This document shows positions 4,159 through 19,385 of a DNA stretch of 64,000 bases, in pieces (positions within the stretch are counted from its first letter, which is position 1; each line of letters opens with the position of its first letter). Origin of the DNA: Owenweeksia hongkongensis DSM 17368 (GTDB lineage Bacteria > Bacteroidota > Bacteroidia > Flavobacteriales > Schleiferiaceae). The notes beneath the pieces are model-generated. The model was given only the letters and a program-made list of their open reading frames with translations, did no database searches and was not told the origin of the DNA. The DNA lies in NCBI RefSeq assembly GCF_000236705.1, contig NC_016599.1, positions 2,356,001 to 2,420,000 on the forward strand, read 5' to 3'. The position numbers and the translations under genes are program-made.

Positions 4159-5000
4159 CAAGGAATCCACTTATTCTCACCAAAGTTTGGCTTGCGCTTT
4201 TCCAAAAATGCATTTCTGCCTTCTGCAGCTTCTTCGGTCATATAGGCAAGGCGGGTGGCTTCACCGGCAAATACCTGCTGGCCCACCATACCATCATCGG
4301 TAAGGTTCATGGCAAACTTTAGCATTTTGATAGAAGTAGGCGACTTGGCCAATATCTCTTGCGCCCATTCGTAGGCTGTATCTTCCAGCTCATCGTGTGG
4401 CACCACTTTGTTTACCATACCCATTTCATAGGCTTCTTGAGCAGAGTAGTTTCGTCCTAAAAAGAAAATTTCTCTGGCTTTTTTCTGTCCCACCATTTTT
4501 GCCAAATAAGCTGAGCCATAGCCACCGTCAAAGCTGGTAACGTCTGCATCTGTTTGTTTAAAAATAGCATGCTCCTTACTGGCCAAGGTCATATCGCAAA
4601 CCACGTGAAGGCTATGTCCGCCACCCACGGCCCAGCCGGGCACCACAGCAATTACCACCTTTGGCATAAAGCGGATTAGGCGCTGTACCTCCAAAATATT
4701 TAATCTGTGATAGCCATCTTCTCCCACATAACCTTGATGTCCGCGAGCTGATTGATCGCCACCAGAACAAAAAGAATAAACACCATCTCTGGTAGAAGGC
4801 CCCTCCGCAGAAAGGAGGATTACCCCTATTGAGGTATCTTCTTGCGCATCGTAAAAAGCATCATATAACTCTTTGGTGGTTTTTGGTCTAAATGCATTTC
4901 TAACGTTTGGTCTATTAAACGCAATTCTTGCAACCCCGTTACACTTTTTATAGGTAATATCTTCAAATTCGGCTGCGGTGGTCCAATTTATAGTGCTCAT
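4158..5000 (-). CDS. menB: 1,4-dihydroxy-2-naphthoyl-CoA synthase
   Basis: Crotonase-superfamily enzyme that cyclises o-succinylbenzoyl-CoA in menaquinone synthesis, acting in the cytoplasm. The 280-residue product has the MenB-type oxyanion-hole segments SGGDQ (79-83) and GWAVGGGHSL (122-131) and the MenB-specific TSFDGGYGSAYLA segment (from about 155), which separates MenB from generic enoyl-CoA hydratases. The start at MSTINW is preferred over upstream in-frame codons because it fits family length and lies about 25 nt after a good promoter. No other men genes are in the window. It overlaps the following secreted-protein gene by one base. Confidence 0.93.
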   Translation of the reverse strand: MSTINWTTAAEFEDITYKKCNGVARIAFNRPNVRNAFRPKTTKELYDAFYDAQEDTSIGVILLSAEGPSTRDGVYSFCSGGDQSARGHQGYVGEDGYHRLNILEVQRLIRFMPKVVIAVVPGWAVGGGHSLHVVCDMTLASKEHAIFKQTDADVTSFDGGYGSAYLAKMVGQKKAREIFFLGRNYSAQEAYEMGMVNKVVPHDELEDTAYEWAQEILAKSPTSIKMLKFAMNLTDDGMVGQQVFAGEATRLAYMTEEAAEGRNAFLEKRKPNFGENKWIP

Positions 5001-5025
5001 CAGATTATGTCTTTTTATAAGACTG

Positions 5026-5054
5026 CAAATGTAAGTACACATTATCAAAACCAA
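5026..5054 (-). promoter_or_regulatory. Bacteroidota-type promoter of menB
   Basis: On the minus strand a TTG box (5054-5052) is followed after 18 bp by TACATTTG (5033-5026), matching the TTG-N17-20-TAnnTTTG consensus of the main Bacteroidota sigma factor. It sits 25 nt upstream of the chosen menB ATG and supports that start. Confidence 0.6.
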
Positions 5055-5185
5055 TTGCCTAGTACAAATCGATATTGGCTTTTCTTCTATTTTAGAATCT
5101 TATTTTCAGATATATCATATTTGTGCATTCTCGGTTTTATATTGGAAACTGTACTTTAGTTTGCGAAAAGCAAGCACCTTAACTT

Positions 5186-6187
5186 ATGTTAGAACTTAGT
5201 TTTGATTCTGTAGCCGAGCCTTTGCTTGGCCCAAAATGGCAAAGCCTGTATAAGGCTTACTGGCCGGCTTACAAAAAATGGTATGAAAGCAATGGTGCCG
5301 ATAAAAAACCTAGTTTGGGAATTGCCAAAAACAGGCTTCAGCGCTATATGCCAGAAATGATGCCTACCTACGAACGTATGTGCGAACTGGCTGGTGATGA
5401 TAATACAGCCCATCGTTTTCTTACGGGCTGGCAACCTCCTGCATATATTTCTGGCTGCTCGCAAGCCGTCTTTACCGATTCGCCCACGCTGGTGCGTAAT
5501 TATGATTATCACCCGCATCTTATTGAAGGCACATTGCTACATAGTTCGTGGAATGGAAAACAAGTGATGGCCGTAAGCGATTGTTTAATGGGTGTTTTAG
5601 ACGGAATGAATTCTGATGGACTTGTGGTCTCGCTCACCTTTGGTGGAAGGCGCAATGTAGGCCGCGGATTTGGAATTCCATTTGTGCTACGCTACATACT
5701 TGAATTTTGTAGTAATGTAGCCGAAGCTGTGGAGGTACTAAAGACAGTGCCCGTCCACATGGCGTATAACATTATGCTGCTCGATAAAACCGGAGCCCAC
5801 AGTATGATTATGATTACTCCACAGCAGCAGCCAAGAGTTACGGATATGCGCGCCTGTGCCAATCATCAAGGTGAACTGCGCTGGCCGGACACCAAACGAT
5901 TTCCCAATAGCCTGGAGCGCGAGCGTTTTTTGAATGAACTGCTTAGCCGGCCGGGTCTCACGGAATGGGAAATGGCCGATAACTTTTTGCGGGTACCCTT
6001 ATTTAACACAAGATACAAACGTGGAGCCGGCACCATTTATACTGCCGTGTATCGCCCAGCTGAAGGCTATATGCAACTTCGCTGGCCTGATAAAACCATT
6101 ACCCAATCCTTTGCTTATTTTGAAGAAGCCTCCACCCCTATTTTCATTTATGCTCCTGATTTGGAGGAAGAGCTGAAAAGCAAATAG
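5186..6187 (+). CDS. C45-family Ntn hydrolase / acyl-CoA:6-APA acyltransferase-like protein
   Basis: A 333-residue cytoplasmic protein (no signal peptide) resembling the C45 peptidase / isopenicillin-N acyltransferase-like group. The Gly90-Cys91 junction in YISGCSQAVF fits the autoproteolytic site that exposes an N-terminal nucleophile cysteine, and RNYDY (104-108) matches the conserved (A/R)RNYD segment shortly after it. Family members hydrolyse or transfer acyl groups on amide substrates; the substrate here is unknown. A choloylglycine-hydrolase-like role is an alternative. Its stop codon directly abuts the stop of the convergent T9SS gene. Confidence 0.72.
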   Translation: MLELSFDSVAEPLLGPKWQSLYKAYWPAYKKWYESNGADKKPSLGIAKNRLQRYMPEMMPTYERMCELAGDDNTAHRFLTGWQPPAYISGCSQAVFTDSPTLVRNYDYHPHLIEGTLLHSSWNGKQVMAVSDCLMGVLDGMNSDGLVVSLTFGGRRNVGRGFGIPFVLRYILEFCSNVAEAVEVLKTVPVHMAYNIMLLDKTGAHSMIMITPQQQPRVTDMRACANHQGELRWPDTKRFPNSLERERFLNELLSRPGLTEWEMADNFLRVPLFNTRYKRGAGTIYTAVYRPAEGYMQLRWPDKTITQSFAYFEEASTPIFIYAPDLEEELKSK

Positions 6188-8773
6188 CTACAGCTTTACT
6201 ACCTTGAAAGTATTACCAGCAATATTGATAAAGTAATAACCTGCCGGAAGATGATGTATATCAATTTGCCAGTGACTTCCCTGAGCTAACTTTTCTCGTA
6301 AAACCACCTTTCCTGAAAGGTTTGTCAAATGTACTTCCGGAGCTTGTTCATCTGTACTTTCAATGTTTATGACACCAGTTGCTGGATTGGGAAACAATGA
6401 AAAAATATTTTTGGCGGGGAGTTCTTCAATACCAATGTTCGGAACCGTGATCTTCATGCAATGTCTGGCTGTTACTCCGCATACATCGGTAGCATCGAGG
6501 CACACATTGTACACTCCTGTATTTGCATAAGTATGAGATATCTTCTTACCACTCCCAAAGGTTCCATCACCAAAACGCCAGGTACCTTGCACAAAACCAA
6601 TTGAGCTAGCTGCAAAATCAACATCCAAATTGTTTACCCGAGCAGAAAAAGTAGCATTACCCGTATTTGTAAAAGCAAGTACCTCCACCGTATCTGTATA
6701 AATACAAGTGCCTTTGTACAATGTAGCCCAATATTTTCCTGATTGATGCACATTCCTACTCGGCTGACTGCTACCGTCATTCCACCGCAAACTGTCCAGG
6801 CCGTTGGTATTTATACTCAGAAGTACAGAATCATTTGTACACAAAAGAGGAATCTCAGGTGTAATTTTGGAAGGCCCAAAAATTTCAATGCTATCCTTTC
6901 TATAGCAACCGTCTTCATCTTTTGCGGTAAGCACATACACACCCGGCCCGTTTATATAAGTATTGTGAATAGTGCTCCCTGTACTCCAATCAAAGCTTTG
7001 ATAAGTGTAGGGCGCAGAAATGGAGAAGTTTGCATTATCACAATACATCTTGTTTCCGGTGGAGGTTGTAAAATTAATTCCCGCACCATAATATCGCACA
7101 GAGTCGCGTACAATTTTTATTTGGTCGGTAGCTACGCAGCCATTTGAAGTAGAAACATCTAAGGTGTAAGTGATAGTACTGTCGGGTGATGCAATGGGAA
7201 ACTGGGCCGTAGGATCACTTAAGCCATGAGCTGGCGACCATTGATAAGTAAGCTGAGAAACGCTACCGCTGCGTGGCACCAACTTAATTGATTCACCGCA
7301 ATACAAAAAAGTATCTTTTGGAAGGGATAAGCCAATTATTGAGTCACGTTTAAACTTAGCTACGAAGTTTCCGTATTGAACGGTAGAGAAGTTTCCGAAG
7401 AGATACGAATCTGAATTTATACCGGATATATACACGTTTTCCTGTAAATCTACTCCTAAGCCAATTGGCCTTGCCAATGAACCATTTACACTACCATGCG
7501 GTGCATAGGCTGCACCTCCCCAATGGTAATTTCCACCACTGTCCATTTTACAAATAAAGAGACCCGTGATATTTCCAGCAGATAACAAATCATTTCCAAA
7601 GGTGAGGTCGTTATCAAAAATCCCAGAAAAATAAGTATCACCATTGCCTAAAGTAATAGCCTCACTATGAAAGTTGGAAAAAGCTAAACTCACCGAGGCT
7701 CCTCCAAAATATTCGGCCCAAGCCCATTGTTTCTGAGGGTTAATTTTTGCGACATAACTAAGTTGCGTGCCTCCTGTCAATAGAGTTGATCCAAACTGAA
7801 TGGCATCAATAAACGATTCTCCTGTAATGTATAAGTTGCCAAAATCATCATAAGCTGCGTGCCAAGTTTTGGGCCCTGAAACAGTATTTGAACCTGCTGC
7901 TGTTAGCCACCATGATTCTTGCCCGGCAGCATCATAACCCAAAATGGCCAAAGCATATTGCCCTCCAGTAGTGGAGACCGTTTGACTTGCAAAGGTTAGG
8001 CTACCCACATAATTTGTGATTACAGTGGGTGCCTGAGCATTATCCACCGCTATTATTGGTGAATGTGAGCTTCTCTCGAAATCTCTGGCCCAAAGCCATG
8101 TTCCCGATGAATCGATTTTTGATATATAGTACGTATCTCCAGAAGTAGATAATGGAATATTCCCGAAAGAAATGGTAGATGAAGACTGTGGATAAATACT
8201 AGCACTACCGGCAATGTATATATTTCCATTCGCATCCCCTTCTATGGAAGAAGGCTCTACTTTCATTTGGCTCTCCGCTTGAGTAGCCCATAGCCATTGC
8301 TGAGTGTTTGTATTGAGGCGCGCCACAAAAGTGTTGAAAGAACCAAGATGAAGCTCGGATAATGTATCGCTACCAAAGATGGCTGTATGGGTGTAAATTC
8401 CGGTTACCGTAATAAACCCGGCCTCGTCAAAGTAAAAGTCGTGTGGAATTGGAAAGTTGTTAAATCCCGAAGGTAATTTAGCTTCAAATTGCACTGCCCA
8501 GCTCCACACTTGATTTTTAGAATACTTTGCGATGAAGTGACTGGTATCAGGTGTACTAAGCGTAATCCCTGCAATGGTAAAAGCACCCTGAAAAGTTCCA
8601 ACAAAGTACATGTTACCAGCTGTATCGCCATGTGATTCCAACAACTGCACATGACTAGGCAAACCTACATCAAAAGCCCATTCCCATGTAGGGCAGTCAT
8701 TTTGAGCTTTCGCTAAAAACCCTATTAAAAATGCAATTGAGAAAAATAGAGTCCTAAGCACTTGCTTTTTCAT
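6188..8773 (-). CDS. large T9SS cargo protein: SBBP-type beta-propeller, PKD domain, type A sorting domain
   Basis: An 861-residue secreted protein. Start at MKKQ gives a signal peptide ending LAKAQ (residue 24). The first ~430 residues carry repeated blades of the form DxxGNxYxxGxF...FGxxxLxxxxxxxFIAKxxxxxxWxWA, typical of SBBP-like propellers. A region with Ig-like segments follows (KLVPRSGS...YQWSP), then a PKD domain (WRFGDGTF...HTYANTGVYNVCL) and a type A sorting domain (IFSLFPNPATGVINI...GYYFINI...KVVKL). In this family the sorting domain directs export by T9SS and surface attachment. It is a full-length paralog of the protein at 16.7-19.2 kb. Binding target unknown. Confidence 0.85.
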   Translation of the reverse strand: MKKQVLRTLFFSIAFLIGFLAKAQNDCPTWEWAFDVGLPSHVQLLESHGDTAGNMYFVGTFQGAFTIAGITLSTPDTSHFIAKYSKNQVWSWAVQFEAKLPSGFNNFPIPHDFYFDEAGFITVTGIYTHTAIFGSDTLSELHLGSFNTFVARLNTNTQQWLWATQAESQMKVEPSSIEGDANGNIYIAGSASIYPQSSSTISFGNIPLSTSGDTYYISKIDSSGTWLWARDFERSSHSPIIAVDNAQAPTVITNYVGSLTFASQTVSTTGGQYALAILGYDAAGQESWWLTAAGSNTVSGPKTWHAAYDDFGNLYITGESFIDAIQFGSTLLTGGTQLSYVAKINPQKQWAWAEYFGGASVSLAFSNFHSEAITLGNGDTYFSGIFDNDLTFGNDLLSAGNITGLFICKMDSGGNYHWGGAAYAPHGSVNGSLARPIGLGVDLQENVYISGINSDSYLFGNFSTVQYGNFVAKFKRDSIIGLSLPKDTFLYCGESIKLVPRSGSVSQLTYQWSPAHGLSDPTAQFPIASPDSTITYTLDVSTSNGCVATDQIKIVRDSVRYYGAGINFTTSTGNKMYCDNANFSISAPYTYQSFDWSTGSTIHNTYINGPGVYVLTAKDEDGCYRKDSIEIFGPSKITPEIPLLCTNDSVLLSINTNGLDSLRWNDGSSQPSRNVHQSGKYWATLYKGTCIYTDTVEVLAFTNTGNATFSARVNNLDVDFAASSIGFVQGTWRFGDGTFGSGKKISHTYANTGVYNVCLDATDVCGVTARHCMKITVPNIGIEELPAKNIFSLFPNPATGVINIESTDEQAPEVHLTNLSGKVVLREKLAQGSHWQIDIHHLPAGYYFINIAGNTFKVVKL

Positions 8774-8922
8774 ACTCACCAATAGTTTGATACCACAAAG
8801 ATGTAGAAATTTAAGTCGAGTATTTCCTACAAATTAGCCGCAGCGTACACCTATTTATTTTAGCAACTAAAAAACCACTAATGAATAGAGAGGTGCTTTT
8901 GGTATTTTTGAAAAGCAAGGTT

Positions 8923-9381
8923 TTACTCTTTCATAAGCTTAATCGATGCTCCATTTTGATTTAAAATATAAACGCCCTGCGGCAAATGACCTAGGCCAAT
9001 TCGCTGATTGGCCTCCACCATTTGGATCATTCGTCTCATTCCGGTAATATCATAAATCTCCACCTTTCCCCTTTGAGCTACCGTGATATAGCCTTTAGCA
9101 AGATTAGGGTAAATAGATGTAGCAACATTCGCTTCTTCCACACCGAGGATTGTTCCATTTACAAGCTCTATATAATTTGCGTTTGGAATAACATCCGAAG
9201 GACCACTTCCGCTAATGTCAAAAATAGAATCCTGTTTAACCGAAAGTGCAGAAGCAAATTCTGTAACATCAAGGCTATGACTATAATCATCACCGTTTTG
9301 ATCTGTTGCTAATTGGGTAAAACTTTGTGCGCTAAGCACACCGACCTAGCACAGGGCTGCTGCGAATACAAGTTTTTTCAT
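8923..9381 (-). pseudogene. small T9SS cargo pseudogene: amber codon in signal peptide plus internal deletion
   Basis: From ATG at 9381 the frame reads MKKLVFAAALC, then TAG (9348-9346), then VGVLSAQSFTQLATDQNGDD in the same frame, so a normal signal peptide is cut by an amber codon. Downstream the frame stays open to a type A sorting-domain-like end. Compared with the intact paralog at 15.2-16.0 kb, the start (ATDxxGDD) and the FDIS..GPSDVxPxxNY segment match, but about 120 residues between them are missing. The sorting-domain PNP motif is degraded to PNL. Its upstream region still resembles that of the paralog. Read-through is conceivable, but the double lesion favours a pseudogene. Confidence 0.75.
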
Positions 9382-9403
9382 CATTAGAATATTTAGTTTC
9401 TAA

Positions 9404-9431
9404 AGGATGCTTAAATGGAGAAAGGGGTTGC
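9404..9431 (-). promoter_or_regulatory. decayed ECF-type promoter GCAACC-N16-CATCCT
   Basis: On the minus strand GCAACC (9431-9426) is followed after 16 bp by CATCCT (9409-9404), 22 nt before the pseudogene ATG. It aligns over 26 bp with the element upstream of the intact paralog (GCAACC-N16-CATCTA), with the -10-like half less conserved. Confidence 0.4.
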
Positions 9432-9547
9432 GTTCTTAATATTGGTATTAATACGCCAACGACACCCCGCTCACCCCTTCATATTACCATCTTTCACTCA
9501 TTCTATCAATAAGCGATCGTTCAGTAATTTTAATCTTTGCAAGTATT

Positions 9548-10663
9548 TTAAGTTCTACTCAAGCCATGCATCTCCCTCCAAAATTGGCTTTGTAGCCAGC
9601 GCTGTTCTAAGCAATAAAAATGTTGACGGGCCTCTTTGTATTGATCATACTGTAGCATTACTTCCTTTTGAAAATAAGGAAGAGCTTCGATAGCACCAAT
9701 TTTACAATGCCCAATGATTTCTGCTGCACGCATGCCTTGCGTTATAGCTTTGATTATACCCTGAGAGGTAATTGGGTCGTAAGCCGAAGCGGCATCGCCA
9801 ATGGCCAGCCAGTTTTCACCTACTACCTTGTCTAAGCAAAAAGACTGTGCCGGAAAACCGAGTAGTTTCTGATCAATAGGCTCCATCTGTGCAATCCACT
9901 GATGTGTATTTGGCGATTGTTGTAAGAGTTTAATCCAGTTTTTAAGATTATTCAGTCTCAACTTCTTTACTGTTTCGGCATTGGTGTAAAGTGTAACCAA
10001 CAATTGCTCGTTGGGAATTCTAGCGGCATACCACCAACCATTTTCTACCGATTCTAAATGTGTAAGCTTAGAAACCTCCCGAAGCCCTTTATTTTTGAAT
10101 CTTAAGGCTAAACACACTAGAGGTGTTTCGTGCTGCTTCTTACTTCCCTTATCGGTAGCAAAAATACTGCGCGCACCAGAAGCATCTACTACAAAATCAG
10201 CCTCAATAGAACTTGAGGCTCCCGCCTTACTCTTCAAGTTCAACTGATAACCACGCTCTGTTGTTGTACTACTTTGATAAATGTGTCCTGACAAAACTTT
10301 GGCGCCACGCACCACAGCTTCATTCACTAAAAATTGATTGAATTGTGAGCGGTTTAAATGCCAGCCGTGTCCAAATGGGCTCAAAATACTATCGTTATAG
10401 CCTCGTTTTTCATTGCCCCAATAAGAGCAACTACCAAAGCAAGGTTCGTGCTTCTGGGCCAGAAAAGCTTCAGAGATCCCCAATTGCCGCAGTATGGGGT
10501 TCATCTCAGGAGGAATGCTTTCACCAATATGAAATTTACCTGTTTTTGAAGTATCTACCAGAGTAACATTGGCCACACCAGCATTTAAAATGGAAATGGC
10601 GCAGGAACACCCTGCGGGTCCTGCGCCAATTATTACCACACTATAATCGCTAACTAAATCCAA
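9548..10663 (-). CDS. LodB-like FAD-dependent oxidoreductase (CTQ maturation factor)
   Basis: A 371-residue flavoprotein of the group 2 monooxygenase / tryptophan-halogenase-like fold: dinucleotide-binding GAGPAG (13-18), VDASGARS (159-166) and the FAD-pyrophosphate GD motif followed by DPITSQGI (289-303). It starts with TTG two bases after the stop of the LodA-like gene. In Marinomonas, LodB is needed in the cytoplasm to build the cysteine tryptophylquinone cofactor of LodA, and this gene order supports the same role. No signal peptide. A generic geranylgeranyl-reductase-like enzyme is the alternative if seen without context. Confidence 0.82.
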   Translation of the reverse strand: MDLVSDYSVVIIGAGPAGCSCAISILNAGVANVTLVDTSKTGKFHIGESIPPEMNPILRQLGISEAFLAQKHEPCFGSCSYWGNEKRGYNDSILSPFGHGWHLNRSQFNQFLVNEAVVRGAKVLSGHIYQSSTTTERGYQLNLKSKAGASSSIEADFVVDASGARSIFATDKGSKKQHETPLVCLALRFKNKGLREVSKLTHLESVENGWWYAARIPNEQLLVTLYTNAETVKKLRLNNLKNWIKLLQQSPNTHQWIAQMEPIDQKLLGFPAQSFCLDKVVGENWLAIGDAASAYDPITSQGIIKAITQGMRAAEIIGHCKIGAIEALPYFQKEVMLQYDQYKEARQHFYCLEQRWLQSQFWREMHGLSRT

Positions 10664-10665
10664 GA

Positions 10666-12843
10666 TTAATTTTTCGGAGGATGCACTTCGTCAGTCACAG
10701 TATTTGGCCAAAAAACAACCAGGTTACTGTCGTCTTTTTTGAAAAGACTTTCCACTTCTAGGTAGTAATCCTTACTAAATTCATCAGGATAGTCTTTAAT
10801 TGCCGGCCCCTGGATAATAGTCCCAATCTTCACCCATTCAGTCAGTATGTCTCTGCGGTTCTGATAGCGACCTACGTTCATCGCTGCCGTGTCAAATTCT
10901 TTTGAATCGGGACAATCGGGAGTTTTTAAATTCTCTTGGGCTGCCGTGCCTTCTCCGCGCACGGAGTATCTCTGTTTGGTAGCTTTTAGATCACCATTAT
11001 TGGCTGACAAATCATCAAAAGTGTACACGGCCACAGGCCTTTGGGCTGGCCACGACCAAAATAACGTAGTGTTTACTGTTCCGCTGTATACATTTTTATC
11101 AGTGATTTTTCCACCTGGATTTGGTGCTGGAGTGTGCGTGGCGCAAGAGTTGTAATCCGTATGCCAAGGGATGGACATAAACTTACACAAGTCTCCCGGT
11201 TGCACAGGATCCGATCTTAATGGGATATAGCCTATCCCTAGGAATGGTTGATCTTTTGTTGCCGAAGCATAATCCAAGGATTCACCATTGATCCTAAAAG
11301 GTCCAATAGCTGGGTTTTGCCAGTCTTTATTATATAAATTAGGATCGCGCACAATAAAAGTCAAATCAATACCTGGACTAAAACGACCACCCAGGCAATT
11401 GACTAAAATGGTTTTATCGAGTTGCTCGCCAGCTCCAATGGGTAATTTGCTTGCTCCAACACTCATTCCTTTGTTCCATTGCTGCATATAAAAATATTGC
11501 TGTCGCGAAACAGTTAAAAAGGCTTGATTAGAGTCGCCCAATGAAAGCGGCATTAATGGTGCCCCTTTATCGTTTTGGCTATCATCCGGATTTCGGATAA
11601 ATTTCATAATGTCGAAAGGCGGCTTTTCCTCCGTTAAAAGCTTCATTCTTTCATGTGCCGAAATTGCCTGATCTGGTAAATTAGTATTCCACATTTGCAT
11701 GTGAGCTGCATTCAAGGTGGGAAAAATATCATCTTGAAAGAAAGGCTTATAGTCGGGATTATAGTTTCCATTGCTATAAACTTCCGGCTGAAGATCAAAG
11801 TTTTCTAACCATGTATTATAAACATCATCCCAAAGGTTTACCACATTCAAGGTTTGAGGAGCATAAGCAGGATCGGTAACTACCGCCCAAGCACTGCCTT
11901 CAACAGGTTGTTGACTACCATCTTCAAAAACCAGTACTGCGGTTACCGGACCATCCGAAGTGTCGTCAAGCCAGTTATCATTATCCACATCCTTACATAA
12001 TGGCTGCTCGGCATCAAAATTCCCTTGATTATCAAAAGCACAGGCTAAACCATGTCCACCCAATACCAAAAGTCGGCCATTAGGTTCGGTAAGGATTTCT
12101 CCTAAATAGCTAATGGGATCACTCCCATTGGCGCCACTTCCGTTAGTTGCAGGAAACTGAATCGGGTAATTAGGTAGATCCGTAATAGTGCCTGAGCTCT
12201 TATCATAATAACTGGCCTTAGGTTCATCATCAAATTTAATTGGCTTAGTTCCCTGGCTGGCTTTAATCGCTCGTGGCCCCGCATCAATCACCAGCTTCTT
12301 CAAGCGATTTGTGTCGCCCGGATCCACGTTGTAAGGGTTTTGTGGTGAAGTACTATCGAAATTCGGATTCCTCAATGGTGGGGTGCTCACTAGCTTAGTT
12401 ATAGTTTTATCATCTATAGGCGGATGGGGTTTGTACAACTCAATTCCCTTGTTTGCATCTTCATCTATCTCCCAGCAATTGGCTTTTTTATTGGCCAAAT
12501 GGGCTGTCCAAATGATGTCTGTTACTTTCTTACCGTCTACAGTAGACCCGATTAATACTTCCTCTCCGCCTTGAGTGGGGTAAGTGAGTTTTTCTCCTTC
12601 ATTAGGATATTGGAAAATCTTGAAGCGTGCTGCCTGTCTTTTTAATCTTCCCGAGCCATCTCGTATATCTCCACTGGTGATGTGGGTGCTTTCGGTGCCT
12701 GGTTTTATGGGAAGCCCACCCGTTATTGCACTAGCTCCATGTGGAGAGGCGGCCATGGTTTCTGGCCCCAAATAGTATTCTGTACTATTCCCAACTCTGG
12801 CCATGCCAATAGCGGGATGTATTCTTAAGCTTGAATTTGCCAT
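10666..12843 (-). CDS. LodA/GoxA-like CTQ-dependent amine or amino-acid oxidase/dehydrogenase
   Basis: A 725-residue protein, close to the 726 residues of Marinomonas LodA. It has the family N-terminus RIHPAIGMARVGNS (7-20). The cofactor region reads KFMSIPWHTDYNSC (554-567), then WSWPAQRP (596-603). By alignment with LodA, Cys567 and a Trp at 596 or 598 (598 favoured, in the WPA context) would form cysteine tryptophylquinone, and Asp563, four residues before the Cys, matches the Asp needed for LodA maturation. The Cys-Trp spacing is only about 31 residues against 65 in LodA, so it belongs to another subgroup and its substrate cannot be inferred. No signal peptide. It sits 25 bp after a haem-c lipoprotein gene and 2 bp before the LodB-like gene, forming one operon. 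Confidence 0.88.
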   Translation of the reverse strand: MANSSLRIHPAIGMARVGNSTEYYLGPETMAASPHGASAITGGLPIKPGTESTHITSGDIRDGSGRLKRQAARFKIFQYPNEGEKLTYPTQGGEEVLIGSTVDGKKVTDIIWTAHLANKKANCWEIDEDANKGIELYKPHPPIDDKTITKLVSTPPLRNPNFDSTSPQNPYNVDPGDTNRLKKLVIDAGPRAIKASQGTKPIKFDDEPKASYYDKSSGTITDLPNYPIQFPATNGSGANGSDPISYLGEILTEPNGRLLVLGGHGLACAFDNQGNFDAEQPLCKDVDNDNWLDDTSDGPVTAVLVFEDGSQQPVEGSAWAVVTDPAYAPQTLNVVNLWDDVYNTWLENFDLQPEVYSNGNYNPDYKPFFQDDIFPTLNAAHMQMWNTNLPDQAISAHERMKLLTEEKPPFDIMKFIRNPDDSQNDKGAPLMPLSLGDSNQAFLTVSRQQYFYMQQWNKGMSVGASKLPIGAGEQLDKTILVNCLGGRFSPGIDLTFIVRDPNLYNKDWQNPAIGPFRINGESLDYASATKDQPFLGIGYIPLRSDPVQPGDLCKFMSIPWHTDYNSCATHTPAPNPGGKITDKNVYSGTVNTTLFWSWPAQRPVAVYTFDDLSANNGDLKATKQRYSVRGEGTAAQENLKTPDCPDSKEFDTAAMNVGRYQNRRDILTEWVKIGTIIQGPAIKDYPDEFSKDYYLEVESLFKKDDSNLVVFWPNTVTDEVHPPKN

Positions 12844-12868
12844 TGTATTTCTTTTTGTAATTGGTTGA

Positions 12869-14248
12869 TTAATTTGAACGATTTACTTCACTTCCGCCTT
12901 GGTAATTCTTTAAAAGAATATGGCTGGTATTGGCATTTTTACCCGGGAGAATGTCCGTGGATCCTAATACATTGGTTACCGGAAAAGTATTGTGGCAACC
13001 AAAGCAACTGTTTTGAGAGCGCACATTTTGTGTAAAAGTTTCAATAGTTGCATTGGATAAGGTTAAGGAGCCTGTCACCATTTCTGAGTTTACATTCGGG
13101 TTCCAATTGGGTTGTAAAACGCCCTTCTCTGTATTGAACCAAACCGCGCCAACTTCAAAGTAATTCTTCCAAACAGAGTTTTCAACTTTAAGCTGATCTT
13201 TTACATTCGCATTCAGGTGATCAATGTTGCCACGGTTGGTAGGACTTCCTCCACCCTGCGCATACTGGCGAGCTACTTGGGTAACAGGGGTGAGGGTTTG
13301 ATTAACTTCATTTACAAAGCGAAGAATTTCAGCATTGTTCACGTTGGTTTTTCTAGCCGTAGTATTGGCTTTATAAAGCAACCACCCCTTCTCAGAAACG
13401 GGATCATTCATACCTTGTGTCACAACACCATTAGAATCCTGTTTAAAGTTTGGTGCGTTACCATCAAATTCAAAAGTTGCCCATATAAACTCAGGATGCC
13501 CTTCGACCACCACTGCAATATGCAACCCTATTAATGCTACCTCCACATCTTTCTGCACTTTCGGATTGTTATCCGGGATTCGTGGCTCACCATCTACCAT
13601 GGTAAGCAATTGAATATTGGCTTTTGTAGTATATAGGTTACTAACATCTTCATCAGGTTGCACCAGCTTCCAGTTAGCTTTTAGCGACATTGATCCTACA
13701 GGAAAGTTGGCGGTAGAATCGAACCCAACAAACACCCCGGGATCATACAATTTATTATCTAGTATCCAGTCTCTATACATATCATTAATCATAATATTGC
13801 TATACACGGCTCTTCCATGCTGATCTATCAACATTCCTTTAGAAAGTGCCTGCTCAACGATGTCCAAAACCTGATTGGTATCATTCTTAGAATTTGGATG
13901 TATCGCATTATTTGTATAGAAGCTTTCAAAGCGAAGTTTTCCATTTACCTCTTCAGTGAGCCACAAAAAATACTGCCAAGAGATTAAGTGAAAGTCACAA
14001 TTGGTAACATCATTCCCTTGTGGAAAATTTTGTGGTTGCGGGGTGGGAACAGTGCCCGAAAACCATTCTGGGGGTGCCTCGCAGTTTCCATCAACACCGT
14101 TGATTTCGCTTGAGCTTGCCGTAGTTGTAGCCAACTCAACAGCTTCGTTTTCGGTTTTGGTTTCTGTGTTTTCATTTGGTGATGAATTACATGCCACTGA
14201 GCCAAGGGCCAGCAACAGCAAAAAACACTGGTTTGGGATGTTTTTCAT
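12869..14248 (-). CDS. lipoprotein with C-terminal haem-c (CXXCH) motif, partner of LodA-like enzyme
   Basis: A 459-residue predicted lipoprotein: signal peptide ending LALGSVAC with lipid-attachment Cys20, then a polar Ser/Thr/Glu-rich linker. The central domain is one I do not recognise (contains HLISWQYFLWLTEE and several conserved-looking aromatic segments). Near the C-terminus CFGCH (415-419) is a single haem-c attachment motif, and Met or His ligands are available around it. As the first gene of the operon with the LodA-like and LodB-like genes, it is a plausible periplasmic or surface electron acceptor. The haem-c function is inferred from one CXXCH only. Confidence 0.72.
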   Translation of the reverse strand: MKNIPNQCFLLLLALGSVACNSSPNENTETKTENEAVELATTTASSSEINGVDGNCEAPPEWFSGTVPTPQPQNFPQGNDVTNCDFHLISWQYFLWLTEEVNGKLRFESFYTNNAIHPNSKNDTNQVLDIVEQALSKGMLIDQHGRAVYSNIMINDMYRDWILDNKLYDPGVFVGFDSTANFPVGSMSLKANWKLVQPDEDVSNLYTTKANIQLLTMVDGEPRIPDNNPKVQKDVEVALIGLHIAVVVEGHPEFIWATFEFDGNAPNFKQDSNGVVTQGMNDPVSEKGWLLYKANTTARKTNVNNAEILRFVNEVNQTLTPVTQVARQYAQGGGSPTNRGNIDHLNANVKDQLKVENSVWKNYFEVGAVWFNTEKGVLQPNWNPNVNSEMVTGSLTLSNATIETFTQNVRSQNSCFGCHNTFPVTNVLGSTDILPGKNANTSHILLKNYQGGSEVNRSN

Positions 14249-15059
14249 TGTTTAAGAAATTTGGTTTTATTAATTGATTTGTATTAAAATTATTCATTAG
14301 GGTTTAGTCATACTTTCCAAAATCAAGTTTGAGAATTGGTGTAGACTCTACTAGCTATATGTTGGATTTGTAACCTGCATATTTCTTCTACCTATATAGC
14401 ATTATGAAAGTTGGTTTTTTTTATACCTAATTATTCTTCAATTAAGCCGTGTGCACTCCACCTTTCTATAAAACAATACATAGACCTAAATGACTTATGC
14501 AATAGCAATAAAGTGGAGGTAAATAAGCTGCTATTGAATAGTAAGCTGTGGATTTATAGCTACTGTTCCTGAGCTACTTATCCGCCATAGGATAAAGTCG
14601 TTTTACCTGATAGAATAAGGGTCAGGACTTTAAATAAAGTGATTGTTCCAAATCGCTTGGAAAGATTGATGATTTTCATAAAACAGGTTTTGATTGAAAA
14701 AAATGATTGAAAATTTTTGAAAAGAAATCAATCCTGTTTATAGCGCTCTTTCGAGCACGGAAAATGCCAAGTAAATTTTTGCATGATTTGAGGTTTAGTT
14801 GGATGCTTGAAAGTAGTCAAATTATTTTCTTCACCAAAAATCTACACGCTCTTTTGTGAAATTAAAGTTTGATATACAACTTTTTACGTAATGCAAATTG
14901 TGACATTTTCATACTGATTGCCATATTCCACATGCTTTTAAGTAGTACTTGCTATTGATGTATCTTCTTAATAATCGAATTTGAAACTTCGCTGATTAAA
15001 AAGAGTTTTAATACGAATATTACTCTCTTCCTTTCACATCACCCTCAATCACACTTTAA

Positions 15060-15180
15060 TTAAGCACTAGCTTCGGGTAGATGAAAGTCTTGATGGCTCT
15101 GGTGTAGCTTATCAAAGTTATCTTCAGTTTTCATCAATGAAATACAGACACTTTACGGTGTCCAGCTTTTCTTCATCCAT
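15060..15180 (-). other. two tiny overlapping open frames (18 and 24 codons)
   Basis: MDEEKLDTVKCLYFIDEN starts at 15180 and stops at 15124; a second frame, MKTEDNFDKLHQSHQDFHLP followed by EASA, starts at 15134, inside the end of the first, and stops at 15060. Both are acidic and polar, and the overlap resembles coupled genes, but they are short enough to occur by chance and could also be the remains of one frameshifted gene. No ribosome-binding evidence. Confidence 0.15.
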
Positions 15181-15200
15181 ATTAGAATAAAAATCAAAAA

Positions 15201-15223
15201 CCCTTTGTGTAAAACACAAAGGG
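15201..15223 (-). terminator. rho-independent terminator
   Basis: Perfect 10-bp stem (CCCTTTGTGT / ACACAAAGGG) with a 3-nt loop. On the minus strand it is followed by TTTTTGATTTTT. It ends the transcript of the adjacent small T9SS cargo gene. Confidence 0.85.
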
Positions 15224-15230
15224 CTGAGGA

Positions 15231-16028
15231 TTATTTCTTCTGGAATTGACCAAGCTTAATTCCTGAATCATCGAGTAATAGATAGCTACCCGGAGGTAGA
15301 TGACTGACGTCAACAGCCTCGTTTTGCCGACTGATTGGGTTCAACCAAACTTTTCCTGAAACACCTACAATTTGAATAGCCCCATTATAATTCAACTCAA
15401 TAGAGTTGGTAGCAGGATTTGGGAAAATACTCATGTCATGTTTAAGTTCCGCTAGGGATACCGAAGCAGGAATAGCGCTTCCGTAGTTTGAATCAGGCAT
15501 TACATCAGAAGGCCCAGCCCCAGCAGGTGAAATATCAAAAGAACCTGTAAATGCCAGCATATTAATGACTGGTGAACTGCCAATTTCCGAAACGGGTATG
15601 GCAAAAATGCCACAGGTACTACTGTTGGTATCTAAGGTAAACATGATATTGGCTGGTGAGCCGTTTACATAACTTTCTGTGTACACTGTTGGGAAAATAC
15701 TGTTTTGATAAGCATACAGCATAATATCAGCCTTCATCGAGGTATTTGGAGTTTGGCTAGCAAGATTGGCTTGTGGTATCGCAGCACCATCCGCTGGGTT
15801 ATTATTGGTATCAAGCGCTAGGGCGTAGCCAAAATCTTTGTGTCGGGTATTGTGATGATCAATCTTGACAAAAAGTGTGTCATTAGTTGAATTTAATCTA
15901 AAGCCTAGTGATTTGGAATCCAGACCAAATGCATGGTCGTCACCAGTTTTATCCGTGGCAATGTTGGTGTACGTCTGAGCTGACATGGCTAAAGGCAAGA
16001 TCAGACAATGGGTAATTAATTTTTTCAT
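15231..16028 (-). CDS. small T9SS cargo protein with type A sorting domain
   Basis: A 265-residue secreted protein: signal peptide MKKLITHCLILPLAMSAQ, a ~170-residue domain of unknown function (IATDKTGDD, FGYALALDTNNNPADG, FDISPAGAGPSDVMPDSNYG) and a type A sorting domain (MSIFPNPATNSIEL...LPPGSYLL). The ALALDTNNN.ADG segment with many Asp/Asn looks like a calcium-supported beta-sandwich, but this is inference. It is the intact paralog of the pseudogene at 8.9-9.4 kb. Preceded by an ECF-type promoter and followed by a strong terminator, so it is probably monocistronic. Confidence 0.78.
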   Translation of the reverse strand: MKKLITHCLILPLAMSAQTYTNIATDKTGDDHAFGLDSKSLGFRLNSTNDTLFVKIDHHNTRHKDFGYALALDTNNNPADGAAIPQANLASQTPNTSMKADIMLYAYQNSIFPTVYTESYVNGSPANIMFTLDTNSSTCGIFAIPVSEIGSSPVINMLAFTGSFDISPAGAGPSDVMPDSNYGSAIPASVSLAELKHDMSIFPNPATNSIELNYNGAIQIVGVSGKVWLNPISRQNEAVDVSHLPPGSYLLLDDSGIKLGQFQKK

Positions 16029-16051
16029 TTTCGTAAGTTTTATTTACCCAA

Positions 16052-16079
16052 TAGATGCTTAAAAAATGAAAAGGGTTGC
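16052..16079 (-). promoter_or_regulatory. ECF-type promoter GCAACC-N16-CATCTA
   Basis: On the minus strand GCAACC (16079-16074) is followed after exactly 16 bp by CATCTA (16057-16052), 23 nt before the ATG. The -35 half and spacing are identical to the two promoter-like elements flanking the ECF sigma gene at 49.0 kb; the -10 half differs at one base from CGTCTA. Confidence 0.5.
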
Positions 16080-16210
16080 CACAAAATCACTGTTTAACAT
16101 TTCTTTAGGACTTCCTTTTTAAAGTGAAATCCAAGAATGGGTGCTCATCACTGAGGTAAAACCTGAGAGCACTTGAATTAGTCAGATAAGCATTTTGAGT
16201 AAAGCCATGC

Positions 16211-16666
16211 TTAGCGTTTTAGATTTGCCTCATAAAGATCAATCCACTCTTGGGCAGTCATTTTGCTGGCAAGCTCACCAAAGAGATCGTAGGGAATCTG
16301 ATCCATTTTTTTGAGACGAACACAGCTTTTACCCATGTCTAATTTGCCTTTTACCCGATTGGCATATTCGGTGGTAAACCACTCCATCAATTCAGGATTG
16401 GCATAAATGCCCATGTGATAAACGGCTATAAAGTTTTTTTGAGAAGCCAAATTCATAAAGGGCAATGGAAGCTTGGTATTGCAGTGATAGCCATCGGGAT
16501 AAACCGAATGAGGGACCACATAACCAAGCATTTTATAATTCATACACTCCTCAAAACCCGAAGGCAAATTATCTAAAATCACTTGCCGTAATTTCAACAT
16601 GGGCTCCTTGCGATCCTCAGGGAGTTCTTCTAAATATTGCTCGGGTGTAGTAGCTTTTGATTGCAT
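16211..16666 (-). CDS. DUF1801 domain-containing protein
   Basis: A 151-residue cytoplasmic protein of the DUF1801 / YdhG-like fold: N-terminal TPEQYLEELPEDRKEPMLKLRQ, a central FEECMNYKMLGYVVP strand and the NFIAVYHMGIYANPEL and GKSCVRLKKMDQIPYDLFGEL segments. Biochemical role unknown for the family. It lies between the two members of the right-hand T9SS paralog pair; no equivalent is present in the left-hand block. Confidence 0.8.
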   Translation of the reverse strand: MQSKATTPEQYLEELPEDRKEPMLKLRQVILDNLPSGFEECMNYKMLGYVVPHSVYPDGYHCNTKLPLPFMNLASQKNFIAVYHMGIYANPELMEWFTTEYANRVKGKLDMGKSCVRLKKMDQIPYDLFGELASKMTAQEWIDLYEANLKR

Positions 16667-16722
16667 AGTGGTGTGAATAGGTTTTTGGCAAATTTAGGGA
16701 TGAAACCACAAGAGAGGTATGG

Positions 16723-19248
16723 CTATATCTTTCCAAATTTGGAAGTCTGATTCCCAACCTTAATAAAGTAGTAACCTGACGGCAGGCTCTGAATATTGAG
16801 TTGCCAATTATTGCTTTTGGATAAATTCTTCTCCAAGAGAATTCGTCCTGAAACATCAAAAACCATAATATGTGGAGCTAGCACTCTTGCACTCGAAATG
16901 TTTAGGATATCATTAGCTGGGTTTGGGAAGAGTGAGAAAACCTCAATAGGCTTGAGTTCGGTAATTCCAATATCTGTAACACTTACATTTTTACACTGCT
17001 CACCTTCGCCCCCACAAATGTCTTTGGAATAAAAACATACTGGATATGTGCCTGGGTTTGCGTAGGTATGAGAAACATTGACTCCTGAAAGATAGGTTCC
17101 ATCACCAAAATCCCAGTAGCCATTATTTACACCAATGGATGTTGGTGCAAAGTGAACCTCAAGACCATAAATGGAATCTGCAAAATTGGCATTGGCTGTG
17201 TCAGTAAAAAGGATAACCTCCACCGTATCCGTTGCCCAGCATGCTCCTCGATATGCATCAACCCAATATTTCCCAGGCTGGTTTGCGTAAATCTGTGATG
17301 ACTTACTGCCAGTATTCCACTTTAGACTATCCAACCCAAAAGTGTTGATTGACAAAGGAAGTGAATCATTATCGCAAAGTAAAAAAGACGGAGACTTAAT
17401 GTCTGCTAGAGGAGCCAACGTGATACTGTCCATCTCGAAGCATCCCAAAGAGTCTCTGGCAACGAGAATATATTTACCCGGTTTTTTGGGGAAAATACTT
17501 TGGGTTGTATCACCATTATCCCAATGAAAATCACTGAAATATGAAGGTGCAGAAATTGAAAAATTCGCATTTTGACAAAAGAAATTAGAACCATTTGATG
17601 TACTTATAGGTATTCCGGACCCAAAACTTGATGCAGAATCTACAAATAAATTTATTGTATCCATAGCTGTACAGCCTAAAGAACTTGTTACGGATACATA
17701 ATATGTTCTAGTAGATTTAGTATCGAAAGTAGGGTTTAAAGTGTCTGGGTTACTAAGCCCAACTTCCGGTGTCCATTTTATATTCATTTCTCCCAGCATA
17801 TTAGAGTAAGTTGGGAGTCTATACCTAGATCCGCATTGCAGAAGTGTATCTACTCCGGCATTCACTTCTGGTATACCCGAAACATTAATTTTGGCGATAA
17901 AATGATCCGGATTCTGAATAAAGTTAAATCCAAATCTAGCCTTACTCCTTGTTTTTCCCTGAAAGTAAATATTGCCATCAACATCACTTGTTAGGATGCG
18001 CCTTGAAAAAACTGTATTGTTAGAAAAAGAATGAATCTTCAGATTTAAAGCCCATTCCCAAGTTCCTTGACTATTGCATTTAGCCCATAAATAAGCCGGT
18101 TTATTAATTGATGCCTTAATGGTATCGTTTCCAAAAACGATCTCTTCCTTATAACTTCCAACATAATAAGTGTTACCAAACTTATTGGTAACCACACCTA
18201 TCAACCCGTGAGAACTTGTTGAAGTAACCACCTTCCTATCTGAACTAGTGGCCCATTGCCATTGTCCTGCTGAATTTACTTTAGCAACAAATTGGTTAGG
18301 GAGAGATGTGCTTAAGCTGGTCGTTCCGATTTGTAGTCCTCCGGTAAAATCGCCCGCTAAATACACATTGTTATTTTGGTCAAGTTTCAAACTACGAACC
18401 CAACCAGTGGAGCCACCAGAACTCTGTGTTTTCCACTGCGTATTCCCTGAAGTATCCAGAGCAGTAATAAAATACTTTCCCTGAATTAGATTGGCCGACC
18501 AAAATGTGCCAGCAGCCACCATTTTTGATTTTCTATATGCCAGTTGGGGAGGTGTCGCGCCACCACCAATTTGCTTTACCCATATCCAATTACCTGAAGA
18601 AGAAAGTTTGGCAACAAAAGAAATGCTAGTATCCAAAGGCAGACTATGGCCTCCAAAGTGTAGCGAATCAGAAAACGCGGAAGCTAAATTATCAAACCCT
18701 GCAACAAAAATATTGCCTGTCGAATCTGTTATTATTGAACTGCCTCTTACATGACTACTATCAGTTACACCTTTCGCCCACAACCATTGCTGAGTATTTA
18801 AGTCAAGTTTTGCGACAAAAAGACTTGACCAATTATGACCTGACACAAGCGACATAGGGCCTAAATAAAGTGAGTCGTAAAAAGAGCCAGTAATCATCAA
18901 TGAGTTGGTGGCCTCGTTTATATCTAAATCAAAAACATCATTACCTGCTAAAAATTTTTGACTCAGCTGTACAGCCCAACTCCAGATGTGATTTGTATCT
19001 CTTTTGGCAATAAAGTAACGGCCATTTGCAGCATTCAATGCGGATGTACCTAAAGTTATTGAACCATGAAAATCACCCATTACGTATTGATTGCCATCAG
19101 CGTCAACTTCTATACTATGTAATTGATAGCCTGTGTTTACACCCAAACTATCCGCCCATTCCCAAACTTCACAGTTTCCTTGTGAAAATGACTTGGGATG
19201 AAAGGCGCAAATCGCTATAATTATAAGACAAAACCTTAAATATTGCAT
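16723..19248 (-). CDS. large T9SS cargo protein: SBBP-type beta-propeller, PKD domain, type A sorting domain
   Basis: An 841-residue secreted protein. The start at MQYLRF gives a signal peptide ending SFSQ (about residue 23); the frame is open further upstream but would place 46 polar residues before the signal. The order is propeller blades (DADGNQYVMGDFHG...FIAKRDTNHIWSWAVQ), an Ig-like region (YRLPTYSN...VSVTSSLGC), a PKD domain (WDFGDGTY...HTYANPGTYPVCF) and a sorting domain (VFSLFPNPANDILNI...GYYFIKV). It matches the 6.2-8.8 kb protein along its whole length. Likely displayed on the cell surface; ligand unknown. Confidence 0.85.
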   Translation of the reverse strand: MQYLRFCLIIIAICAFHPKSFSQGNCEVWEWADSLGVNTGYQLHSIEVDADGNQYVMGDFHGSITLGTSALNAANGRYFIAKRDTNHIWSWAVQLSQKFLAGNDVFDLDINEATNSLMITGSFYDSLYLGPMSLVSGHNWSSLFVAKLDLNTQQWLWAKGVTDSSHVRGSSIITDSTGNIFVAGFDNLASAFSDSLHFGGHSLPLDTSISFVAKLSSSGNWIWVKQIGGGATPPQLAYRKSKMVAAGTFWSANLIQGKYFITALDTSGNTQWKTQSSGGSTGWVRSLKLDQNNNVYLAGDFTGGLQIGTTSLSTSLPNQFVAKVNSAGQWQWATSSDRKVVTSTSSHGLIGVVTNKFGNTYYVGSYKEEIVFGNDTIKASINKPAYLWAKCNSQGTWEWALNLKIHSFSNNTVFSRRILTSDVDGNIYFQGKTRSKARFGFNFIQNPDHFIAKINVSGIPEVNAGVDTLLQCGSRYRLPTYSNMLGEMNIKWTPEVGLSNPDTLNPTFDTKSTRTYYVSVTSSLGCTAMDTINLFVDSASSFGSGIPISTSNGSNFFCQNANFSISAPSYFSDFHWDNGDTTQSIFPKKPGKYILVARDSLGCFEMDSITLAPLADIKSPSFLLCDNDSLPLSINTFGLDSLKWNTGSKSSQIYANQPGKYWVDAYRGACWATDTVEVILFTDTANANFADSIYGLEVHFAPTSIGVNNGYWDFGDGTYLSGVNVSHTYANPGTYPVCFYSKDICGGEGEQCKNVSVTDIGITELKPIEVFSLFPNPANDILNISSARVLAPHIMVFDVSGRILLEKNLSKSNNWQLNIQSLPSGYYFIKVGNQTSKFGKI

Positions 19249-19265
19249 ATGTTTTAGTTCTTCTG

Positions 19266-19273
19266 CAAAGCTA
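19266..19273 (-). promoter_or_regulatory. putative -7 element TAGCTTTG
   Basis: TAGCTTTG followed by C on the minus strand, 17 nt before the ATG of the large T9SS cargo gene; it supports the shorter start. No clear -33 TTG. Confidence 0.35.
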
Positions 19274-19333
19274 CTAAGCATTTGAAGATAAAAACCGGAA
19301 ATTTGTTTATGAAAATAGTTAGCGCAAAAAATA

Positions 19334-19359
19334 AAAAGCAGCCTATCAGAGCTGCTTTT
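19334..19359 (-). terminator. rho-independent terminator of the carboxylase gene
   Basis: AAAAGCAGC (19334-19342) pairs with GCTGCTTTT (19351-19359) across an 8-nt loop. On the minus strand the stem runs into a T-rich tract (TTTTTATTTTTT). It lies 27 bp after the carboxylase stop. Confidence 0.75.
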
Positions 19360-19385
19360 CTTTAATATCAAATGTGGCTTAGCCA

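Follow-up and report, generated by a model that had tools for sequence, protein, structure and literature searches.

A three-gene block pairing a LodA-like quinoprotein with a cytochrome P460-like haem-c protein in Owenweeksia hongkongensis and other bacteria

In a 64,000-nucleotide stretch of the Owenweeksia hongkongensis DSM 17368 genome (NC_016599.1, positions 2,356,001 to 2,420,000 of the forward strand; hereafter the window, to which all positions refer unless a locus is named), three consecutive minus-strand open reading frames (ORFs) at 9548-14248 encode a haem-c lipoprotein, a LodA-like protein predicted to carry cysteine tryptophylquinone (CTQ), and a LodB-like flavoprotein. The pairing of the haem gene with lodA is real and widespread, no report of it was found in the literature searched, and it is new on both sides as a variant of known families (LodA-like and P460/c'-beta). 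Tentatively, at somewhat below an even chance, we read the three genes as a horizontally exchanged cassette in which hydrogen peroxide (H2O2) from a CTQ oxidase would be used by a haem-c partner of the P460/c'-beta fold.

Results

Features of the operon

The genome is a single contig of 4.0 Mb. The three ORFs are separated by 25 and 2 bases, in the tight order (haem-c lipoprotein, LodA-like, LodB-like) that an earlier sequence-only reading of the stretch had described. The features on which the analysis relies are as follows, with the evidence for each in parentheses.

12869-14248, minus strand: haem-c lipoprotein, 459 amino acids (aa), apparent distant large relative of the cytochrome P460/c'-beta fold family (ORF, CXXCH, family alignments, AlphaFold2 [AF2] model, VIA)
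10666-12843, minus strand: LodA-like CTQ quinoprotein, 725 aa, probable group IB type (PF17990, PF18417, model, tree)
9548-10663, minus strand: LodB-like flavoprotein, 371 aa, predicted CTQ maturase, listed start TTG (NCBIfam matches)
12992-13006, minus strand: codons of the haem-c motif CFGCH, residues 415-419 (Cys415, Cys418, and His419 kept in 57 of 57 sequences)
13679-13681, minus strand: Lys190 codon; the residue aligns with the lysine cross-linked to haem in P460 (present in all 57 sequences; profile alignments)
13520-13522, minus strand: His243 codon; the residue may lie in the distal pocket or be a second iron ligand (present in all 57 sequences)
14189-14191, minus strand: Cys20 codon, putative lipobox cysteine, LGSVAC (sequence; lipobox assigned by eye)
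11143-11145, minus strand: Cys567 codon, CTQ cysteine (alignment)
11050-11052, minus strand: Trp598 codon, CTQ tryptophan (alignment)
11155-11157, minus strand: Asp563 codon, conserved CTQ-site aspartate (alignment)
9560-14280, no strand: DNA block common to Roseivirga ehrenbergii (L042), 79% identity, ending near the edges of the three genes (DNA comparison)

Gene order across the LodA subfamily

Contigs were scanned for the best 80 of at least 533 LodA-like relatives, a choice biased to the near kin of the window, and 79 loci were kept; their neighbourhoods were searched with profiles for the haem protein, LodA, and LodB and later for the ferritin-like and tyrosinase genes. The LodA tree of 88 rows (the 79 scan loci, the window, and 8 other loci) was made by a quick method without bootstraps, omitted further LodA loci and the 19 regions of the class samples described below, has long end branches for L119, L037, L087, L089, L092, and L039, and holds the second of two lodA copies as its L087 row. 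Contig ends cut several loci (e.g., L043, L049, L050, and L082). A subfamily of 49 rows split from the rest of this tree with a support of 100 in the Shimodaira-Hasegawa-like approximate likelihood ratio test (SH-aLRT). In 30 of the 49 rows, drawn from Bacteroidota, Pseudomonadota, and Verrucomicrobiota, a haem-c gene lay directly upstream of lodA, and the idea of a cytochrome gene private to this genome, which the sequence-only reading had allowed for, was thereby rejected. Measured from the final sense codon of the haem gene, the lodA start lay a median of 30 bp away, at 0-104 bp in 28 of these 30 rows (365 and 415 bp in the other two); such close spacing argues that the pairing is not a product of chance.

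Elsewhere in the subfamily the same slot is occupied differently. A ferritin-like gene lay directly upstream of lodA in 11 rows, L068 has a ferritin-like gene and then the haem gene just beyond, three rows have a tyrosinase gene, one ends at a contig end, and three have none; two of these last three (L065 and L067) bear a fused PF14518 iron-enzyme domain, and L078 has no recognised partner. Pfam searches on examples confirmed the ferritin-like (PF12902) and tyrosinase (PF00264) identities. What the swapped proteins share is a probable metal centre for handling oxygen or peroxide. A C-terminal PF14518 domain is also present in both LodA-like proteins of L087 (9902-13783 and 15124-19005 of that locus; the first copy is outside the tree), the second of which has a weak match (0.0013) to the gamma subunit of quinohaemoprotein amine dehydrogenase (QHNDH) over the CTQ region.

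All rows of the 10-row branch that holds the window are of the haem type, as are 29 of the 36 rows of one larger branch (SH-aLRT, 97). The expectation that lodA genes beside haem-c genes might form one clade thus held for most of them and failed for several pairings in other parts of the tree. Outside the subfamily, the haem gene was found upstream of lodA in L037 and L089 (both long branches), downstream of it in the tyrosinase-type Bacteroidota operons L028, L035, L105, and L110 (in differing orders), and 2.5 kb from it on the opposite strand in L112. Pairing outside the subfamily with differing gene order speaks for function and not for inherited order. The L037 LodA-like protein (7542-11072 of that locus) has 1176 aa, with a long insertion inside it and PA14/PINIT-like matches at its C-terminus, and its gene adjoins the haem gene and a divergent LodB-like gene.

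The haem-c protein

The haem protein had no Pfam match over the cut-off, no NCBIfam match, and no sequence match in the PDB; against PF16694 (Cytochrome_P460) it scored 14.2 bits (curated cut-off, 27). Weak Cytochrome_P460 matches were found in 13 of 41 family sequences (E-values up to 1, the best 0.0018). An ordinary class I or II cytochrome c was considered and rejected on the same lack of Pfam, NCBIfam, and PDB sequence matches, the fold pointing instead to P460/c'-beta. The AF2 model (predicted local distance difference test score [pLDDT], 86.9) retrieved exclusively P460 or c'-beta structures at Foldseek ranks 1 to 6 (with weak E-values, 0.08-0.47), and rows 1 to 17 of 25 in the VIA alignment were likewise all P460/c'-beta (Z, 5.0-5.9; 123-139 residues aligned), the first unrelated row having a Z of 3.6. 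With reserve, the model thus appears to share the P460/c'-beta beta-sheet fold. The VIA Z values alone would be modest; comparison of a loop-cut profile helps. For this, insertions were cut from the haem-protein profile by means of predicted strands and the alignment, in four variants, which scored 52.9-55.8 against 17 P460 domains (five of them near-copies); a wrong-order control scored 30.8, and 20 column shuffles that kept CXXCH scored 30.3-36.7, although these shuffles, having retained the haem motif, reached probabilities of up to 81%. In all four variants Lys190 aligned with the lysine that forms the cross-link in P460 (Lys78 in the Methylococcus protein). For the position of the distal carboxylate (Glu96/Asp102), two strand registers scored alike (54.9 and 55.8).

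Conservation was assessed in a 57-row alignment, which consists of the 41 rows of an earlier alignment (A3), the L007, second L031, L035, L068, and L091 sequences omitted from it, and 11 later sequences; A3 had also left out the L074 fragment. The only CXXCH of the haem protein (residues 415-419, near the C-terminus), Lys190, and His243 are invariant in all 57 sequences, including that of the window. Glu260 is missing in four, and Trp193, Tyr363, and Ser442 are each missing in two. In a previous 11-row alignment His243 and Glu260 were not fully invariant, the odd row being the second L031 copy; in the 57-row alignment this copy has His243 and lacks Glu260. For the role of distal residue or second ligand, we infer, His243 is the strongest candidate. 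Around lodA, all 40 haem-family ORFs (one a fragment) have a single CXXCH, and 38 have a strongly hydrophobic N-terminal stretch, of the lipoprotein type in most Bacteroidota (judged partly by eye); in the window's protein the signal region ends in LGSVAC, which the lipobox pattern missed. L031 (7486-10482) and L232 (4727-7834) carry tandem pairs of haem-c family genes without lodA, and one member of each tandem lacks Trp193, Glu260, Tyr363, and Ser442 and keeps Lys190, His243, and CXXCH.

Taken together, the protein looks like a large, previously undescribed relative of cytochrome P460. With P460/c'-beta proteins (PF16694; PMC11928373) it has in common the fold, a C-terminal CXXCH, a lysine at the cross-link position, and a strand of the W-A-x-F type; it differs in its size (about 460 aa with large insertions, compared with 135-161 aa in the solved P460/c'-beta chains), its lipoprotein nature here, the invariant His243, and the weakness of its Pfam matches.

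LodA-like and LodB-like proteins

The LodA-like protein matched LodA_N (2e-52) and LodA_C (2.1e-38) in Pfam. Asp563, Cys567, and, 31 residues after the cysteine, Trp598 (in W-P-A-Q-R) are present as the sequence-only reading had named them and are invariant in all 29 aligned sequences, the window's included. The structure model (predicted TM-score, 0.90) aligned with LodA (2ymw) at a Z of 38.3 over 546 residues (28% identity in the structural alignment) and with most GoxA entries at a Z of about 31, unrelated rows lying near 4; residues 568-596, between the CTQ cysteine and tryptophan, mostly had a pLDDT below 50. By residue numbers, the Cys-Trp spacing of 31 is shorter than the 65 of LodA. 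The protein scored 207.9 bits against the L-lysine 6-oxidase LodA equivalog NF038172 (curated cut-off, 600) and was far below the curated cut-offs for both lysine oxidase and glycine oxidase. The adjoining LodB-like gene product matched NF038171 (1.5e-83), NF038174 (8e-62), and NF049967 (4.4e-54), in every case under the equivalog cut-off. No export signal was visible in LodA-like proteins, N-terminal hydropathy being low in 13 of 13 checked.

We assigned the subfamily to group IB of the LodA classification (Campillo-Brocal et al. 2015, PMC4417212). In that study, the two lodA genes of Oceanospirillum beijerinckii are classed IB and III, and LodA fusions of the catalase type, including a 973-aa protein of this species, all belong to group III. 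The O. beijerinckii genome has lodA frames of 977 and 700 aa; because the 692-aa Oceanospirillum protein L066 falls in our subfamily, group III being the fusion protein, the subfamily corresponds to group IB. From its residues, fold, domains, and place in the tree the window's protein is probably a group IB CTQ enzyme. It shares with LodA and group IB proteins the fold, the CTQ cysteine and tryptophan with the aspartate, and a LodB-like gene downstream (PMC4417212), and it differs from LodA in the upstream haem-c gene, the below-cut-off LodA/GoxA equivalog scores, and the shorter Cys-Trp stretch. The word "cytochrome" is absent from the main text of PMC4417212, in agreement with the earlier remark that lod operons had no known cytochrome gene, and no paper in the literature searched dealt with both P460 and LodA.

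Distribution and mobility

Compared with a 22-kb Roseivirga ehrenbergii locus, window positions 5000-20000 gave one long DNA match (79% over 4,735 columns); in the flanks, beyond one extra 63-bp match, no DNA match was found at an E-value of 1e-5. Of 13 relatives with a LodA match, one was the window's own genome and the other 12 were all outside its genus; the match was absent from the three same-genus genomes listed. The three-gene block seems, on these comparisons, to move as a unit.

An evenly drawn sample comprised 274 Gammaproteobacteria (8 with LodA) and 289 Alphaproteobacteria (11 with LodA), with one known centre genome in each class, and 19 regions were taken from the 17 other LodA-matching genomes. 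One new case was found (G748), with a LodA-like protein 48% identical to the window's and a haem gene directly upstream. Ferritin-like genes were found beside lodA in G845 (outside the tree) and in the G1002 region, which corresponds to L079. The profile search detected no haem gene in the remaining 16 regions. From these even samples, the pairing belongs to this subfamily, which is itself rare.

The haem family itself is carried by 15 of 296 Bacteroidota genomes. In the neighbourhoods of its solitary members no clear second enzyme family was found, save one protein of 600-700 aa without a Pfam family, encoded directly upstream of haem genes lacking lodA in L030 (4785-6914), L229 (3058-5163), and L234 (7791-9611); the L229 and L234 copies are 65 and 44% identical to that of L030. 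This protein may be another enzyme partner of the haem family.

Surroundings of the operon

A gene pair of older duplication flanks the operon, one copy on each side (6188-9339 and 15231-19386); its 864- and 887-aa members are 36% identical and the 138- and 265-aa members, with sorting tails of the type IX secretion system, are 34% identical over 89 residues. Between the operon and its upstream neighbour gene is a hairpin with a T run (15225-15199). A simple sigma-70 scan gave 10 promoter-like sites, fewer than in shuffled sequence (15.7), and a Bacteroidota-type promoter pattern gave two sites in the window, neither of them before the operon. Cytochrome c assembly matches are present in the genome.

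Discussion

Characterised LodA-type enzymes are oxidases. In the cassette as we tentatively see it, the LodB-like flavoprotein would mature the LodA-like CTQ enzyme, which would oxidise some amine or amino acid, most likely with release of H2O2. The partner, an exported haem-c protein of apparent P460/c'-beta fold (lipoprotein-anchored in O. hongkongensis), would encounter the peroxide outside the cytoplasm, where H2O2 would form its Lys190-haem cross-link, as in cytochromes P460; the haem would probably also run a peroxidase-type reaction, either removing peroxide or oxidising the LodA product. PMC11928373 describes the P460 cross-link as forming during aerobic expression, and an inactive pro-enzyme made anaerobically needed peroxide, oxygen being insufficient. 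Because P460 maturation needs peroxide, we propose that the LodA-like enzyme makes H2O2 for its P460-like partner. One member of the P460 superfamily is reported to have a peroxidase-like activity. PMC4417212 also reports the involvement of a Caulobacter group IB LodA-like protein in peroxide generation, and this report, together with the swapping of the upstream slot, favours an oxidase with a peroxide-using metalloprotein partner over a dehydrogenase; with a ferritin-like protein or a tyrosinase as the replacement, a simple electron carrier is not what would be expected.

Related arrangements are known. LodA fused to catalase-type (PF00199) or iron redox (PF14518) domains and LodA near tyrosinase, multicopper oxidase, or ferritin-like genes likewise combine a CTQ oxidase with a metalloprotein of oxygen or peroxide chemistry, and they differ from the present case, in which the partner is an exported P460-like haem c protein encoded by its own gene.

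Several points weigh against the use of LodA-derived peroxide by the haem protein. The homology of this protein to P460 is distant: its whole-length profile matched P460 weakly (probability, 16-21), a clear match needed the loops to be cut out, the best Foldseek E-value was 0.08, and VIA Z values below 8 may reflect a common arrangement. In characterised P460 the cross-link is reported to suppress or reduce peroxidase activity. The haem protein is exported, whereas no export signal is visible in the LodA-like protein, and the two may not meet. Among 14 Bacteroidota carriers of the haem family, the gene was beside lodA in 3 and away from it in 11 (some regions reach contig ends); since the family is mostly away from lodA in this phylum, its chemistry need not depend on LodA. 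The group IB enzyme linked to peroxide in Caulobacter may have no haem partner.

A bolder version of the cassette, which we consider doubtful, is a relay of two protein-derived cofactors: H2O2 from the LodA-like enzyme would forge the lysine-haem cross-link of the partner and then fuel the oxidation by the haem of the quinone enzyme's product at the cell surface. The haem partner would then be a new large P460 branch outside the nitrogen-cycle bacteria, and one modular system would be at work, in which a ferritin-like protein, a tyrosinase, a fused iron enzyme, or a catalase-type domain could stand in as the enzyme of the second step. An oxidase with a coupling enzyme, of the VioA/VioB type, is an analogy; no tie of it to LodA was found in the literature searched.

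The sequence-only reading had offered two functions, a dehydrogenase linked to respiration and a surface enzyme with controlled peroxide output, of which the second now stands nearer to the evidence. The first, an amine or amino-acid dehydrogenase passing electrons from reduced CTQ through haem c to respiration as a two-protein counterpart of QHNDH, is unlikely. The tight pairing is conserved, and the invariant His243 could be the second iron ligand of an electron carrier; QHNDH unites CTQ and haem c in one enzyme (PMC7876137), and direct electron transfer from CTQ to haem is possible. The partner, however, resembles P460/c'-beta proteins, whose reviewed members bind ligands or catalyse and are not simple carriers; sister genes fill the slot with ferritin-like, tyrosinase, or fused iron-enzyme proteins; the group IB peroxide report points the other way; and the operon has no second haem protein. 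A dehydrogenase is therefore less likely than peroxide use. QHNDH has a radical-SAM maturase, and none is encoded among the three operon genes. The present operon resembles QHNDH in that a single genetic unit specifies both CTQ and haem c; the 9-kDa thioether-bridged CTQ subunit and the di-haem subunit described in PMC7876137 are not among the three genes. Membership of the QHNDH family was rejected because the neighbouring protein has one CXXCH and the QHNDH subunit is di-haem.

Less likely again is that the haem protein is a mere shield or scavenger, guarding the producer from the peroxide of an antimicrobial LodA-like enzyme with which the haem protein has no physical link. PMC4417212 describes group IA LodA, AlpP, and their kin as antimicrobial through amino-acid oxidase activity, the catalase-type LodA fusions in the same source would fit such a role, and so would the peroxidase-like activity of the P460-superfamily protein. 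A single P460-type haem c would be an unlikely efficient scavenger, however, and the haem gene is also found without lodA. That the haem protein acts on hydroxylamine or nitric oxide as P460 does, with LodA supplying ammonia or an imine, we regard as improbable: characterised P460s oxidise hydroxylamine, and the P460-type fold and invariant Lys190 are in keeping with such chemistry, but the distal carboxylate required for hydroxylamine oxidation had no single place in the alignments of the haem family to P460, Glu260, a strongly conserved carboxylate, is lost in 4 of 57 sequences, and the operon holds no nitrogen-oxide gene. It is very improbable that the upstream metalloprotein helps to build the LodA-like quinone, as MauG, a di-haem protein, takes part in making the tryptophylquinone of methylamine dehydrogenase (PMC7876137): haem and other oxygen-using metals do recur in the slot, but LodB and GoxB are the known maturases (PMC4417212 and PMC7876137) and the operon has a LodB-like gene of its own, the haem protein is exported whereas the LodA-like protein has no visible signal, and the one CXXCH of the haem protein falls short of the two c-type haems required, on which ground membership of the MauG-type maturases was also rejected.

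The use of LodA-derived peroxide by a P460-like partner, tentative as it is, would bear on both families. Group IB LodA-like enzymes, which have no reported substrate, gain a conserved candidate partner. A large unannotated P460/c'-beta branch with an invariant cross-link lysine appears in bacteria that were not picked for hydroxylamine metabolism. As P460 maturation needs peroxide, the pairing allows a sharp question, namely, whether an oxidase of the same operon supplies it, and the swapping of partners along one enzyme family offers a natural series for studying the cellular uses of peroxide from amino-acid oxidases.

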